A stretch of 39,879 bases of DNA from Crocinitomicaceae bacterium (lineage in GTDB: Bacteria > Bacteroidota > Bacteroidia > Flavobacteriales_D > Crocinitomicaceae): contig SSGT01000100.1 of NCBI GenBank assembly GCA_008017065.1, positions 1-39,879 of the forward strand, given 5' to 3'. The stretch's first letter is position 1, and every line of letters begins with the position of its first letter. The position numbers and the translations under genes are program-made. This document shows positions 32,623-39,770 of the stretch, piece after piece. Under the pieces are notes generated by a model, which saw only the letters and a list, made by a program, of their open reading frames with translations, was not told the origin of the DNA and did not search any database.

Positions 32623-32636
32623 ATGATTTTTATCAT
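32623..32636. promoter_or_regulatory. Fnr-box-like palindrome ATGAT-TTTT-ATCAT upstream of paaA
   Basis: Same arms and 4-bp spacer as the element at 35997-36010. Resembles the FNR consensus TTGAT-N4-ATCAA. Confidence 0.6.
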
Positions 32637-32741
32637 ATTTTTCATTGCATTTCGTCATTTCATCAACAAGGCAATTCTTTTTCCTTTGCAGTATTCGTGA
32701 TTACATTTTTGAATCAACAACTCGTTAATAGCTTTTGGAAT

Positions 32742-33674
32742 ATGAATACGATCGCCCCCGCTATGGAAGAATTGCTGGCTGCATTTGAAGAAAAGATCAA
32801 TGCGGAAGTAAAAATTGAACCCAAAGATTGGATGCCCGAAGAGTATCGACAACATCTAATTCGCCAAATTTCGCAGCATGCACACTCGGAAGTGATTGGT
32901 ATGCAACCCGAGGGAAATTGGATCTCAAGAGCGCCGTCGTTGCGGAGCAAAAAGATCTTGTTGGCAAAAATTCAAGACGAAGGTGGTCACGGATTGTATT
33001 TGTACAGCGCCGCTGAGACCTTGGGAGTAAGCAGAGAACAATTCATCGCCTGGCTGCACGAAGGAAAAGCCAAGTATTCATCCGTATTCAATTATCCAAC
33101 GTTGAATTGGGCAGACGTAGGCGCGATTGGCTGGTTGGTTGACGGGGCGGCGATTACCAATCAAGTTTCTTTGCAACGCACCTCGTATGGACCGTATGCG
33201 CGGGCAATGGTTCGTATTTGTAAAGAAGAATCGTTTCACCAACGTCAAGGGTATGAAATCATGTGGCGCATGATGGAAGGAACCAAAGCGCAGCAACAAA
33301 TGGCGCAAGATGCATTGAATAGATGGTGGTGGCCAGCCTTGATGATGTTTGGACCTCACGATTCAGATTCTCCACATTCAAGTTTGGCTATGAAATGGAA
33401 AATCAAGCGTGAATCCAATGATTATTTGCGTGATAAATTCATCAACAAAACGATTCCTCAGGCTGAATTGATTGGTTTGAAAGTTCCAGATCCAAATTTG
33501 CAATTGATTTCGGAGGGTATTTACAAACACGGTGATATCAATTGGGATGAATTTTGGGAAGTTGTAAAAGGAAACGGACCTTGCAATCAGCAACGTTTGG
33601 AACATCATATCAAAGCCCACAAAGAAGGAGCATGGGTGCGCGCAACAGCGTTGGCTTCCAAATCAAATAACTAG
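32742..33674 (+). CDS. paaA: 1,2-phenylacetyl-CoA epoxidase subunit PaaA
   Basis: '[62 protein letters not shown]', '[24 protein letters not shown]', '[12 protein letters not shown]'. The ATG at 32742 is preferred over the GTG at 32697, which lies almost at the promoter element. Confidence 0.93.
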
Positions 33675-33688
33675 TAAAACACAAAGAA

Positions 33689-34132
33689 ATGGACAAACAA
33701 GCTTTACACGCCTTTTTGGTAGAATCGCAACAAGTAATTATTCGCGATTTGGAGGAAAAAATTGCATTGGATTCTTCTATGGCTGACATTGATGAAAACG
33801 ATACGATTGATCCAGAGGATTTGTCGCATCAGGCTGAGTCGGCAACGTTAAAACAACTATTCACACAGAAATTGGCAAAAGCAAAAGCAGACTTGGCAAA
33901 CTTAGAACAGGTAGATTTTTCGGCTAAGACGAGCGCTTTACCGGGTGCTGTTGTTTCGACCGAAAAATTCCATTTTGTGTTGGGATATGCAGCCATTCCG
34001 TTTGAATTTGAAAACAAAACCATCGTGGGTGTTTCCGTTGATTCGCCGATTTTTCCTGAAATCAAGGGGAAACAAATTGGGGATGTGTTTGCTTATTCGG
34101 ACAACACGTATACAATCGTCGAAATTTATTAA
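33689..34132 (+). CDS. GreA/GreB-like transcription elongation factor family protein
   Basis: 147 aa. Helical N-terminus 'ESATLKQLFTQKLAKAKADLANLEQ' and C-terminus 'GVSVDSPIFPEIKGKQIGDVFAYSDNTYTIVEIY', matching the Gre C-terminal pattern (xISxxSPIxxALxGKxxGDxVxxxxxxYxIxxI). Confidence 0.65.
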   Translation: MDKQALHAFLVESQQVIIRDLEEKIALDSSMADIDENDTIDPEDLSHQAESATLKQLFTQKLAKAKADLANLEQVDFSAKTSALPGAVVSTEKFHFVLGYAAIPFEFENKTIVGVSVDSPIFPEIKGKQIGDVFAYSDNTYTIVEIY

Positions 34133-34141
34133 GGTAAGAAT

Positions 34142-34435
34142 ATGGAAGCAAAAGAAAATCAAGGGGAACTTTGGGAAGTTTTTATCCAATCAAAGCCAGG
34201 ACAATCCTTCAAACATGCGGGAAGCGTGCATGCGTATGACAAAGAAATGGCCATTGAAAATGCACGTGATGTGTACACAAGACGCGCGGAGGGAACTGGT
34301 TTGTGGGTTGTACCGAGTAAGGAAATCATTGCCGTAACGGTCAATGAAGCAGCGTATTTCTTCGAGCCTGCCGACGAAAAGATCTATCGTCATCCCACGT
34401 TTTATCAAATGCCAGAAGGGGTAAAAAACATGTAG
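34142..34435 (+). CDS. paaB: 1,2-phenylacetyl-CoA epoxidase subunit PaaB
   Basis: 97 aa. 'LWEVFIQSKPGQSFKHAGSVHAYDKEMAIENARDVYTRRAEGTGLWVVPSKEI'. Confidence 0.93.
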   Translation: MEAKENQGELWEVFIQSKPGQSFKHAGSVHAYDKEMAIENARDVYTRRAEGTGLWVVPSKEIIAVTVNEAAYFFEPADEKIYRHPTFYQMPEGVKNM

Positions 34436-34440
34436 TGTGT

Positions 34441-35190
34441 ATGGAATCAAAACTAAAATATTATTTGCAAGTTGCAGACAATGCGTTGATTTTAAGTCAT
34501 CGGTTGGGTGAATATTCGAGTCATGGTCCATTTTTGGAGGAAGACTTGGCCAACACGAATGTTGCACTCGATTTGATTGGAATTGCCGAATCAATTTTGG
34601 ATGAAACGGGCAGGCAAGAAGGACTTGGACGCACAGGAGATGATTTGGCGTACCGCAGAAATGAAACCGAATTTTTGAATTGTTTGCTTGTTGAACAACC
34701 CAATACGGATTTTGCGTTTGTGATGGTGCGTCAATTTTTTACAGATGCATTTCACTTTTATTTCTTCTCAGAATTAACCAAAAGCAACGATGCATTTTTG
34801 TCGGCAGTAGGCTATAAATCCTTGAAAGAAGTGACTTACCACTTGCGACGAAGTTCAGAATGGATGATTCGCTTGGGAGATGGAACGCCTGAAGCAAATG
34901 CAAAAACAACCCACGCGATTCAAACGTTATGGAAATTTTCACATGAATTTTTCATAGAAAATGCGATCGATCTGGAGATGAAAAACGCTGGAATTGGGGT
35001 AGATTTAAAAGTGGTCGAAAGCAATTGGATGCAAAAAATCAGAGAAATTTTTTACATGTCAAAACTATCAATTCCTGAAAACAATTACCAATATTCAGGC
35101 GGAAAGAACGGTGTTCACACCGAAAATCTGGGATATATTTTAGCGGAAATGCAGTATTTACCAAGTAAGTATCCGGATGCCGTTTGGTAG
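34441..35190 (+). CDS. paaC: 1,2-phenylacetyl-CoA epoxidase subunit PaaC
   Basis: 'YLQVADNALILSHRLGEYSSHGPFLEEDLANTNVALDLIGIAESIL', 'YHLRRSSEWMIRLGDGTPEANAKTTHAI'. ATG at 34441. Confidence 0.93.
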   Translation: MESKLKYYLQVADNALILSHRLGEYSSHGPFLEEDLANTNVALDLIGIAESILDETGRQEGLGRTGDDLAYRRNETEFLNCLLVEQPNTDFAFVMVRQFFTDAFHFYFFSELTKSNDAFLSAVGYKSLKEVTYHLRRSSEWMIRLGDGTPEANAKTTHAIQTLWKFSHEFFIENAIDLEMKNAGIGVDLKVVESNWMQKIREIFYMSKLSIPENNYQYSGGKNGVHTENLGYILAEMQYLPSKYPDAVW

Positions 35191-35255: not shown

Positions 35256-35945
35256 TTATTTTCCTGCTAAGTGCAGTAATTTCTGTTTGTTTATGATTTC
35301 GATTTTTCGGGTATGAATTTCAATCATTTCCTCGTCTTTGAAATCTTTGAGTAAACGGATCAAGGTTTCGGTTGCAGTTCCAACAAAATTGGCTAAGTCT
35401 TCACGAGTCAAGTTAATTTCTTCTGCGCCATAAATATCCCCTAAAATGAGCAGCGAAAAAGCCAATCTTTCGCGAACGGATTTTTGAGCCATGTTTGTAA
35501 TGAATACAGCACGATCGCCCAATTCTTTTGAAAGTTCTTGCATGATTCCATTGCGCAGTGCTGGATTGGTATCAATCATGTTCAAGAAATCTTCTTTGGC
35601 AATGAAACAAATATTTGATTCTTCTAACGTGGTTGCAGAAACCTTGTAGGGTTCTCCACTAAACATCGCTCTAAAACCAATGATTTCTCCTTCCTTGGCA
35701 ATGTGAATGATCTGTTCCTTTCCTTCGTCGCCTCGGGTAAATACCTTTACTTTTCCTTGATTCAAACAATAAACTCCGCGCTGTAAACTCCCTTCAACAA
35801 ATAAGGGTTGATTTTTTTTGTAATAGGCGCACGTTTTCATTGAATTGACTTCTTCCAAGCTGTGGTCACAAAAACTACCCAAAAGAGAACTGCTGCGTGC
35901 CCCACAATTCATACAGGTTATATTTTTATGCGATTTATCCAACAT
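35256..35945 (-). CDS. Crp/Fnr family transcriptional regulator
   Basis: 229 aa. cNMP-binding-like fold 'QPLFVEGSLQRGVYCLNQGKVKVFTRGDEGKEQIIHIAKEGEIIGFRAMFSG', HTH 'LTREDLANFVGTATETLIRLLKDFKDE', N-terminal Cys cluster 'CMNC...FC...TC'. Confidence 0.93.
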   Translation of the reverse strand: MLDKSHKNITCMNCGARSSSLLGSFCDHSLEEVNSMKTCAYYKKNQPLFVEGSLQRGVYCLNQGKVKVFTRGDEGKEQIIHIAKEGEIIGFRAMFSGEPYKVSATTLEESNICFIAKEDFLNMIDTNPALRNGIMQELSKELGDRAVFITNMAQKSVRERLAFSLLILGDIYGAEEINLTREDLANFVGTATETLIRLLKDFKDEEMIEIHTRKIEIINKQKLLHLAGK

Positions 35946-35996: not shown

Positions 35997-36010
35997 ATGA
36001 TTAATATCAT
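35997..36010. promoter_or_regulatory. Fnr-box-like palindrome ATGAT-TAAT-ATCAT between the Crp/Fnr gene and hemN
   Basis: Perfect 5-bp arms, 4-bp spacer, in the divergent intergenic region. Confidence 0.65.
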
Positions 36011-36057
36011 TTTTTAAACTCTGTGTTTGTATTTCCTTTGCAGTCAAAATAAATGTG

Positions 36058-37422
36058 ATGCAACAAGATATCATTGAAAAATACAATGTTCCTGGTCCAA
36101 GGTACACCTCTTATCCAACGGTTCCTTTTTGGAAAAATGAGAATTTGAGTGTAACTCAATGGTTATCAACTGTAAATAAAAACTACGATCACTTTCAATC
36201 CAACGAAGTGAGTCTTTACATTCATTTACCATTTTGCGAAAGTTTGTGCACTTTTTGTGGTTGTCACAAGCGCATCACGAAGAACCACGGCGTTGAAAAA
36301 CCATACATCGACGCGGTGATTGAAGAATGGAAATTATATAAAAGTAAATTGCCTTTTCAGCCGAAAATTAAAGAATTGCATTTGGGTGGAGGTACACCCA
36401 CTTTTTTTGCACCGGAGGAATTGATTCGTTTGGTTCAATGTTTATTTGAAACAACACACGTCGACCCAGCGGCATGCGAGCTAAGTTTTGAAGCGCACCC
36501 CAACAACACCACTGAAAGGCATCTGCTGTCGTTGTACGATTTTGGTTTCCGCCGTTTGAGTTTAGGAATTCAAGATTACAGTCCGATTGTACAACAAGCC
36601 ATTCATCGTATTCAATCGGTTGAACAAGTAACGAAAGTACATACGCTGGCCCGCAAAATAGGGTATACGTCCATTAGCCATGATTTGGTTTTTGGGCTTC
36701 CCAAACAGCAATTGAGTGATATGTTAGATACCGTTGCAAAAACGTTGGCCTTGCGCCCAGATCGCATCTCACTCTACAGTTACGCCCACGTGCCGTGGAT
36801 CAAAGGGAATGGACAACGGGGCTACGATGAGTCGGATTTGCCGCAAAATGAAGAAAAACGAAAGTTGTACACCACTGCGAAACAGGCATTGGAGGCAGCT
36901 GGGTATTCCGAAATTGGAATGGATCATTTTGCTCTTGATCACGACGATTTGGCCCGCGCCTTTCGCGCAAAAAATTTGCACCGTAATTTTATGGGATATA
37001 CCACGCAATCTACTTCCTTTTTGATCGGCCTGGGCATGTCTGCTATTTCCGATAGTTGGTTTGGTTTTGCTCAAAACGACAAGTCGGTTGAGGGTTATTT
37101 GGAGCGCATCGAAAAAGGGGAGATTCCGGTGTTTCGCGGACACATACTTTCTGAAAAAGAATTGGTAATTCGCCAAAATATTCTTGATTTAATGTGTCAT
37201 TTTGAAACTACGTTGCATCCAGATCCACGCTATCAAGCAATGAACGATCAAATAAAAATAGATTTACAGGACCTTATTGCCGATAAACTAGTTTGTGTTG
37301 AAAAGGATACAGTTTGCGTCACTGAAATTGGAATTCCGTTTGTTCGAAACATCTGCATGGCATTCGATCAAGACTTGGTAAAAAATGTAAAATTGGAACA
37401 AAAATTTTCCCAAACGATATGA
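36058..37422 (+). CDS. hemN: Oxygen-independent coproporphyrinogen III oxidase
   Basis: 'YNVPGPRYTSYPTVPFW', radical-SAM 'SLYIHLPFCESLCTFCGCHKRI', 'LHLGGGTPTFFAPEEL', 'RLSLGIQDYSPIVQQAIHRIQ'. ATG at 36058, or GTG at 36055 as in the track. Confidence 0.95.
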   Translation: MQQDIIEKYNVPGPRYTSYPTVPFWKNENLSVTQWLSTVNKNYDHFQSNEVSLYIHLPFCESLCTFCGCHKRITKNHGVEKPYIDAVIEEWKLYKSKLPFQPKIKELHLGGGTPTFFAPEELIRLVQCLFETTHVDPAACELSFEAHPNNTTERHLLSLYDFGFRRLSLGIQDYSPIVQQAIHRIQSVEQVTKVHTLARKIGYTSISHDLVFGLPKQQLSDMLDTVAKTLALRPDRISLYSYAHVPWIKGNGQRGYDESDLPQNEEKRKLYTTAKQALEAAGYSEIGMDHFALDHDDLARAFRAKNLHRNFMGYTTQSTSFLIGLGMSAISDSWFGFAQNDKSVEGYLERIEKGEIPVFRGHILSEKELVIRQNILDLMCHFETTLHPDPRYQAMNDQIKIDLQDLIADKLVCVEKDTVCVTEIGIPFVRNICMAFDQDLVKNVKLEQKFSQTI

Positions 37423-39770
37423 GCGAGAAAAACTGTTTTCACTGCGGGGATGAGGTAATTGGTAAACCAATTCTTTTCGATACAAAGGAATTTTGTTGCA
37501 ACGGTTGTAAAAGTGTGTATCAGTTGCTAAAAGATAATAATCTGGGTACTTTTTACACCTTGGAACAAGGAGCCGGAGCAAAACCGAGTGCAAGTAATCA
37601 GCACAAATATGCGTTCTTGGAAGTCGATGGCATTCGTGCAAAATTTATTGATTTTGAAGATGAAACGACGGCGCGTGTGACGTTGTTTCTGCCACAAATC
37701 CATTGTTCGTCTTGTATTTATTTGTTGGAAAACTTGTCGAAAATTGAGCCTCAGGTATTGTCTTGTCAGGTCAATTTTACCAAGCGTGAAGCGACGATTG
37801 CTTTTGAAAATACACTTAGTCTAGCTGCATTAGCGTTGTTGCTCGATCGCATCGGTTACGCTCCTAATTTTGGAAATCGCAACGAAACGGAGAAACAAAT
37901 CGATAAGCAGTTTATGTACAAATTGGGAATCGCTGGTTTTGCATTTGGAAGTATCATGCTTTGGGCGTTTCCGGAGTATTTGGGTATCGAAGGAGACAAT
38001 CCAGAGTTTCGAAATTTCACAGCGTATCTTTCATTGGCGGTTTCCGTTCCCGTGTTAGTATACTCTGCGAGTGACTATTTTGTTTCGGCATTCAAAGCGT
38101 TGAGGTATAAAAGTTTAAACTTGGATGTGCCGATAACGATCGGTATAATTGCACTGTACTTGCAAAGTTTTTTCACAATCGTTACTGGCGGAGGACCGGG
38201 ATATATGGATTCTTTTGCTGGATTTATATTTTTCTTACTGATCGGAAAATGGTTTCAAAATAAAACCTATAAAACACTTTCCTTTGAACGAGATTATACT
38301 TCTTATTTTCCAGTTGCCGCTACAAAAATTGTTGCTGGAAAAGAAGAAATCGTTGAAATTGAAGAGTTGCAACTTCTCGACCACATTTTAATCCGAAACG
38401 AAGAAGTGATTCCTTGCGACAGTACCTTAATTTCCGACTCGGCGAAAATTGATTACAGTTTTGTAACAGGTGAATCCAATCCAGTGCACATGAAAAAAGG
38501 AGATTTCATTTATGCAGGTGGGAAGTTAATTGGTCAACGCATCGAATTACAAGTTGAAAAAGAAAGTAATCGAAGTCATTTGACACAATTGTGGAACGAT
38601 GTCAAAACTGACCAAAAAGAAATCTCAGGTTCCAGATATCAAGATAAGTTATCGGTCTACTTTTTGGCGATCATATTAGTTATTGCAACTGTTTCAGGGA
38701 TTGGTTGGGCGTTTGTGGATCCGTCTAAAATAACACACATCGTGGTTGCAATTTTGATCGTTGCGTGTCCGTGTGCCTTGGCACTTTCAGCTCCGTTTAC
38801 CTACGGAAATGTGATGCGTTTGTTGGGAAGAAAAGGATTGTACTTGAAAAACACGTCGGTGATTGAACGAATCAATGCAGTTACAGACATTGTGTTTGAT
38901 AAAACGGGTACGTTGACAACTGGAACAACACATCGAGTAGAATATCAAGGAGATGCATTCAACAAAGAAGAATTGGAAGCGATTTATTGCTTGGCTAATT
39001 CTTCTACACATCCATTGTCACGTGCGATTGTCGGTTATTTGCGCTTACAGCAAATTGCTTCGAATGCGCCAATTGATGATTTTTCGGAGCAAATCGGAAA
39101 AGGTATTTCGGGAAATATCGATGGTAAAACGGTTTTGATAGGAAATGCAGCTTTCACCAATCAATCTCAATTGGACGCCAATGAAACATCTTCGTTTGTT
39201 CGAATTGGTGAAAAAAGTGGACGATTTATTTTTTCATCCGAATTACGTGATGGAATTGGAAGTTTAATGAAGCAATTGAGTGCGTACAAAATACACGTTT
39301 TATCGGGAGATAAAGACAAAGACAAGACGATTATGGAACAAATTCTTCCAGCTTCCAGTTCTATTTTGTTTGAACAAACACCGCGACAAAAGTTGGAGTA
39401 TATTGTAGATCTAAAATCAAAAGGAAAACAGGTGATGATGATTGGCGATGGATTAAATGATGCTGGAGCTTTGGGAATTTCAGACGTTGGAATTGCGGTT
39501 TCTGAAGATGTTTTCCGTTTTACGCCTTCTTCGGATGCCATTGTGGAAGCAAGTAAATTATCGATACTGCATCAATTGCTTTCGATTTCTAAATTTTCGA
39601 AAACTGTATTGCGATTCTGCTTAATTTTTTCACTGTCCTACAACGTGGTCGGATTGAGTTTTGCGATTTCAGGAAATTTGACACCACTCGTAGCAGCTAT
39701 TTTAATGCCAATAAGTTCGATCACGGTTGTCTTTATTAGTACGTTTTTGGTTTTTCTAAAAAAGTCATAG
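37419..39770 (+). CDS. ccoI: Heavy-metal translocating P-type ATPase, CcoI/FixI-like
   Basis: 783 aa. N-terminal 'CFHCGDEVIGKPILFDTKEFCCNGCKSVYQLL', HMA-like 'IHCSSCIYLLENLSKIEPQV', 'ACPCALALSAPFTYGN', 'DKTGTLTTGTTH', 'MIGDGLNDAGAL'. ATGA overlap with hemN. Confidence 0.92.
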   Translation: MSEKNCFHCGDEVIGKPILFDTKEFCCNGCKSVYQLLKDNNLGTFYTLEQGAGAKPSASNQHKYAFLEVDGIRAKFIDFEDETTARVTLFLPQIHCSSCIYLLENLSKIEPQVLSCQVNFTKREATIAFENTLSLAALALLLDRIGYAPNFGNRNETEKQIDKQFMYKLGIAGFAFGSIMLWAFPEYLGIEGDNPEFRNFTAYLSLAVSVPVLVYSASDYFVSAFKALRYKSLNLDVPITIGIIALYLQSFFTIVTGGGPGYMDSFAGFIFFLLIGKWFQNKTYKTLSFERDYTSYFPVAATKIVAGKEEIVEIEELQLLDHILIRNEEVIPCDSTLISDSAKIDYSFVTGESNPVHMKKGDFIYAGGKLIGQRIELQVEKESNRSHLTQLWNDVKTDQKEISGSRYQDKLSVYFLAIILVIATVSGIGWAFVDPSKITHIVVAILIVACPCALALSAPFTYGNVMRLLGRKGLYLKNTSVIERINAVTDIVFDKTGTLTTGTTHRVEYQGDAFNKEELEAIYCLANSSTHPLSRAIVGYLRLQQIASNAPIDDFSEQIGKGISGNIDGKTVLIGNAAFTNQSQLDANETSSFVRIGEKSGRFIFSSELRDGIGSLMKQLSAYKIHVLSGDKDKDKTIMEQILPASSSILFEQTPRQKLEYIVDLKSKGKQVMMIGDGLNDAGALGISDVGIAVSEDVFRFTPSSDAIVEASKLSILHQLLSISKFSKTVLRFCLIFSLSYNVVGLSFAISGNLTPLVAAILMPISSITVVFISTFLVFLKKS

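Follow-up and report, generated by a model that had tools for sequence, protein, structure and literature searches.

Introduction

Gre factors are usually viewed as housekeeping proteins with broad and overlapping roles. Structurally, residues D41 and E44 of Escherichia coli GreA touch the catalytic Mg2+ (PMC7527559). Gfh1 inhibits transcription despite having conserved tip acids (PMC4598747), so that an acid pair of this kind is no proof of cleavage activity. E. coli cells without GreA and GreB are compromised under nitric oxide stress (PMC11498084), which is a precedent for Gre factors in respiratory stress. Outside the Bacteroidota, precedent for micro-oxic induction of phenylacetate (paa) genes is mixed: in Bradyrhizobium, phenylacetate-CoA oxygenase subunits are listed with fixG, fixI and hemN2 as proteins induced by microoxia (PMC6515984), whereas PaaI and PaaJ proteins of Burkholderia are listed with negative values in micro-oxia (PMC3759415).

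Here we describe a Gre-like gene, named greX in this study, that lies inside a paaABC operon of a Crocinitomicaceae bacterium. The window is the whole stretch of DNA that was analysed (39,879 nt, contig SSGT01000100.1); its source genome is labeled G000 and the window GreX protein P0001.

Results

greX is a conserved gene between paaA and paaB

greX is an open reading frame at 33689–34132 (+ strand, ATG start, 147 aa). It follows the end of paaA (33674) after 14 nt and precedes the start of paaB (34142) by 9 nt, in agreement with the length and spacing given in the original prediction, which was made from the sequence alone. The neighboring genes are paaA (32742–33674, +; an in-frame GTG at 32697 is a possible alternative start), paaB (34142–34435, +) and paaC (34441–35190, +; GTG start possible at 34435), and their products all score above NCBIfam equivalog cut-offs (TIGR02156, 493.8 bits; TIGR02157, 114.2 bits; TIGR02158, 231.6 bits). 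The operon comprises paaA-greX-paaB-paaC only, with neither paaD nor paaE 3' of paaC or elsewhere at the locus, and ends at a convergent gene for a Crp/Fnr-family regulator (35256–35945, −; PF00027 and PF13545 over cut-off) with N-terminal cysteines in a CxxC...C arrangement. Beyond it lie a radical SAM gene (36055–37422, +; PF04055), whose product we take to be HemN-like from its sequence and context, and a ccoI/fixI-type gene for a copper P-type ATPase (37419–39770, +; PF12156, PF00122).

An alignment of seven GreX relatives, run against the species genomes of GTDB, gave 33 loci. The paaA-greX-paaB slot was found in 27 of these 33 relatives, and a convergent Crp/Fnr gene occupies the same downstream place in 18 of the 27. 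Ratios of dN/dS for greX were 0.03–0.22 (seven close pairs). We conclude that greX is a real conserved gene whose placement between paaA and paaB is not due to chance; slot conservation and dN/dS together rule out a gene remnant or an artefact.

We then compared this arrangement with paaA-paaB spacing in 199 sampled Flavobacteriales genomes, which contained 115 measurable pairs (109 genomes). Median spacing was 56 nt, and 104 of the 115 gaps were ≤200 nt, as expected from the earlier statement that classical paa operons have paaA next to paaB. greX was identified in only five of these pairs (G000, G133, G159, G153 and G187), and each of the five genomes also carries a canonical paaA-paaB pair without greX. 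Three other wide gaps occurred, in G114, G184 and G039.

The linkage has exceptions in both directions. Two close relatives of greX are located away from paa (L049 and L059), and these lone copies are nested within the paa-linked greX clade; G157, the genome of one of them, has a canonical paaA only and no cbb3-linked paaA. Retention of greX without paa fits a trans-acting factor, and these cases suggest that greX does not have an obligate local role on the paa operon. Conversely, two loci of the greX-linked PaaA clade (G103 and G175) are without greX. Distant GreX relatives were found in unrelated loci, which likewise points to action in trans.

One of the distant relatives (L188:6986-7441), encoded on plasmid pP63_f of Phaeobacter and labeled hypothetical in its annotation, has lost most tip acidic residues; its gene is part of a run of redox genes with msrB, msrA, redoxin, SelO and mercuric-reductase-like genes and another msrA. 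The context of a relative in G018 is of a stress type and without paa: its cluster (L106:6600-11673) encodes UspA-like proteins, a response regulator that carries a fused Crp-like domain, and a PAS-domain protein. A third relative (G185:C13, on L011) lies 3' of a gene for a small heavy-metal-associated protein, and one in-frame TGA is reported within its database match.

The greX operon is a second paaABC system in an Fnr/cbb3 gene cluster

The source genome also carries a canonical paaABCD set on another contig (G000:C209; L100:660-3201), where paaA and paaB are 18 nt apart without greX. The genes adjoining that set differ from those at the window copy, which indicates that two PaaABC systems coexist. 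PaaA copies linked to greX all fall, with the greX-less copies of G103 and G175, into one clade of the PaaA tree (support 99/96), and the canonical duplicates are placed well apart from it (99/95). The canonical copy and this split rule out an ordinary paa operon that has received an insertion. The original prediction correctly named paaA and paaB as the neighbors of greX, but the operon is not the classical one: it is a second paaABC, lacking paaDE, in an Fnr/cbb3 cluster. In G133 and G187 the same unit continues with fnr, hemN, ccoI and ccoNO (a FixN-FixO fusion), followed by ccoP in G133. The second paaABC of G103, which is without greX, has the cbb3 genes on one side and fnr on the other.

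Since the source genome is 73% complete, the absences of paaE and paaK were checked in six ~99%-complete relatives (G133, G159, G187, G153, G103 and G175), each with two paaABC sets. PaaE is present in these relatives, away from the second paaABC; in four of the six it shares a contig with the canonical copy, and it could serve both PaaABC copies in trans. Phenylacetate-CoA ligase PaaK (TIGR02155) was over cut-off in none of the six, which may either obtain phenylacetyl-CoA by a different route or have a divergent ligase. Outside this group, a genome of family f3 (G002, locus L141) has a single paaABC without paaD or paaE beside genes resembling those of tryptophan and homogentisate catabolism (read by eye as tryptophan dioxygenase, kynurenine monooxygenase, HAAO, HPPD and HGD-like), and its PaaA groups closer to the window clade than to the canonical clade.

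Crp/Fnr-like boxes precede the greX operon

A Crp/Fnr-type palindrome, TGATTTTTATCA (32624–32635, +), matches TGAT-N4-ATCA exactly and lies 118 nt 5' of the paaA ATG; another (35998–36009, +) lies between fnr and hemN and is seen in several orthologous loci. Among cbb3-linked loci, the relaxed form TGA-N6-TCA occurs within 250 nt 5' of paaA in 25 of 28 (2.1 expected from shuffles), a count that is somewhat optimistic as the relaxed palindrome was chosen after the strict consensus and 14-mer results and that comes from loci related by descent. As many upstream regions in the first control set may be coding sequence, the appropriate comparison is with the seven canonical duplicates from this family, none of which has the box upstream of paaA; the background in random 250-nt windows from the same loci is 16%. 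Boxes are mostly positioned 70–140 nt before the paaA start and often come as two boxes 22 nt apart. This spacing of about two helical turns is exact in L034, L039, L042, L046, L048, L051, L101 and L102. The strict FNR consensus TGAT-N4-ATCA is weak alone (8 of 27 loci), full 14-mer FNR scoring of the upstream regions was uninformative, and sigma-70 and terminator scans, which do not cover Bacteroidota promoters, gave nothing above shuffles. The second paa operon looks induced by low oxygen.

GreX is predicted to adopt a Gre fold

Curated family models did not recover GreX. PF01272 had no match to P0001 at E ≤ 10, its best E-value among the 33 GreX members was 0.016 with the gathering score not reached, and no Pfam or NCBIfam Gre model was over cut-off in any of the 33; sequence searches of the PDB with GreX likewise gave nothing usable. 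AlphaFold2 models (pLDDT 83–84), however, consist of a long helical hairpin (helices at residues 3–37 and 42–74) and a C-terminal beta domain (86–147), consistent with the helical N-terminus originally proposed, and the anticipated Gre-type C-terminal signature is present as the motif SPIxxxxKGKxxGDxF. The best ten PDB matches (Foldseek, E ≤ 0.006, probability 0.97–1.00) were all Gfh1, GreA or GreB; the same families led the ranking for the first GreX model, and in both searches the best matches were Gfh1. TM-scores against Gre/Gfh1 structures are modest (0.34–0.55), as expected if the orientation of the two domains differs. Profile-profile alignment (hhalign) of GreX with 30 GreA sequences covered the whole length at E 5e-6 with a probability of only 70–79, and a transitive link exists through G185:C23, which P0001 matches (E 4e-5) and which is itself over the PF01272 cut-off. 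The HMM match to PF01272 on which the original prediction partly depended is missing, but the structural match is there, and by Foldseek, profile-profile comparison and the transitive link GreX is a protein of predicted Gre fold.

The acidic tip of GreX comprises residues 33–48 (D-I-D-E-N-D-T-I-D-P-E-D-L-S-H-Q; codons at 33785–33832, +). The hhalign register places D33-x-x-E36 of GreX on D41-x-x-E44 of GreA, and the predicted helices are long enough for this register. By the alignment the GreX tip is ~8 residues longer than that of GreA, and its seven acidic residues are more than GreA has. Nine positions are invariant in the 33 GreX sequences (D33, D35, E36, T39, D41, P42, E43, D44 and Q48), even though identity to P0001 over the full protein drops to 32–59%. 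The suggestion that acidic residues might occupy the coiled-coil tip is thereby borne out, with D33 and E36 invariant in the GreA catalytic register.

Because PF01272 has no match, we term GreX an uncatalogued, divergent Gre-like subfamily, defined by sequence comparison, with an enlarged acidic tip. We found no description of greX or of a paaA-greX-paaB arrangement in the literature libraries searched, which are incomplete, so that this is not proof of novelty; together with its position outside curated families, this suggests that the subfamily is apparently new. A housekeeping greA is encoded away from the window (G000:C117), ruling out that greX is the only greA of the genome, and a further short Gre-like protein is encoded at G000:C1.

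Discussion

The gene, its conservation, the Gre fold, the register of the acid pair, the paralogous operon, the Fnr/cbb3 linkage and the Crp/Fnr-like boxes were obtained by computation. We consider it probable that GreX is a Gre-type secondary-channel factor of RNA polymerase that is co-induced at low oxygen. Low oxygen would act through the adjacent Crp/Fnr regulator to induce paaA-greX-paaBC, with greX presumably co-transcribed with the paaDE-less paaABC. The C-terminal domain of GreX would then bind RNA polymerase at a site outside the secondary channel, and the helical hairpin would extend into the active centre. There, D33 and E36 may ligate the catalytic metal and promote the cleavage of RNA that has backtracked. 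Transcription could thereby be sustained under oxygen or energy limitation. In one group of Flavobacteriales, where greX is regularly part of this second paa operon, the findings suggest, without proving it, a dedicated RNA polymerase helper for oxygen-poor conditions.

Similar observations could result from a protein that acts on RNA polymerase in the opposite sense. As a Gfh1-like inhibitor, GreX would enter the secondary channel and its metal-binding acidic loop would block catalysis, so that low-oxygen transcription would be slowed and not rescued. The leading Foldseek matches are indeed Gfh1, the tip exceeds that of GreA in acidic residues, and Gfh1 itself inhibits although its tip acids are conserved (PMC4598747). 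Yet the Foldseek ranking does not discriminate Gre from Gfh1, the GreA-type DxxE pair of GreX is in exact register, and Gfh1 has been described from Deinococcus-Thermus, which leaves an inhibitory role unlikely. GreX could instead be a general RNA polymerase factor without an oxygen-specific role whose gene is carried in the operon by chance. Lone copies do exist elsewhere, and Gre factors are general; but the slot is kept across well-diverged loci and the Crp/Fnr boxes mark the whole unit, and we see only a very slim chance of such hitch-hiking.

The gene order could also mirror a protein complex, with a repurposed Gre fold making GreX an accessory or assembly subunit of the second PaaABC oxygenase. 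Such a role would account for the strict paaA-paaB slot in 27 loci, for greX travelling with one PaaA clade, and for a second PaaABC without PaaD at its locus. It is rather improbable given that G157 keeps greX without a cbb3-linked paaA, that the L049 copy is not located near paa, that G103 and G175 retain the oxygenase without greX, that distant relatives occur in unrelated loci, and that the GreA acid pair is kept at the tip. A specific form of this idea, in which the Gre fold no longer serves RNA polymerase and GreX binds the second PaaABC through its acidic loop as an assembly or regulatory subunit, for example loading iron into PaaA as a substitute for the absent PaaD, strikes us as distinctly improbable.

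A conserved and uncatalogued Gre subfamily that gene order and Crp/Fnr boxes tie to a low-oxygen operon would allow a direct test of whether bacteria devote secondary-channel factors to a single physiological state. A second class of PaaABC comes to light here as well, one that has neither PaaD nor PaaE encoded beside it and lies inside a cbb3/Fnr gene cluster.

Compared with known systems, GreX shares with GreA and GreB a two-helix hairpin with an acidic tip, a C-terminal beta domain, the DxxE register and an SPI...GK..GD motif, but it falls under the PF01272 cut-off, its N-terminus is ~9 residues shorter, its tip has ~8 extra acidic residues, and its gene is carried in a catabolic operon. 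Gfh1 of Thermus provides the best structural matches and has a strongly acidic tip, whereas the PDB search gave no sequence match between it and GreX. Rnk has a Gre-like C-terminal domain and belongs to the same RNA polymerase-binding class; however, its hairpin is short where that of GreX is full-length, and the Rnk structure 3bmb is a weak match (E 0.14). Short Bacteroidota Gre-like proteins with a GDKHE motif (for example L002:821-1270 and L012), found by the GreX profile, resemble GreX in length and C-terminal domain and differ at the tip (GDKHETxRAM versus DxDExDTxDPEDxSHQ). Finally, the window PaaA, PaaB and PaaC pass the same equivalog models as those of canonical paaABCDE operons, from which the window operon is set apart by a separate PaaA clade, the lack of paaD and paaE at the locus, greX itself, the Crp/Fnr boxes and the cbb3 neighborhood.
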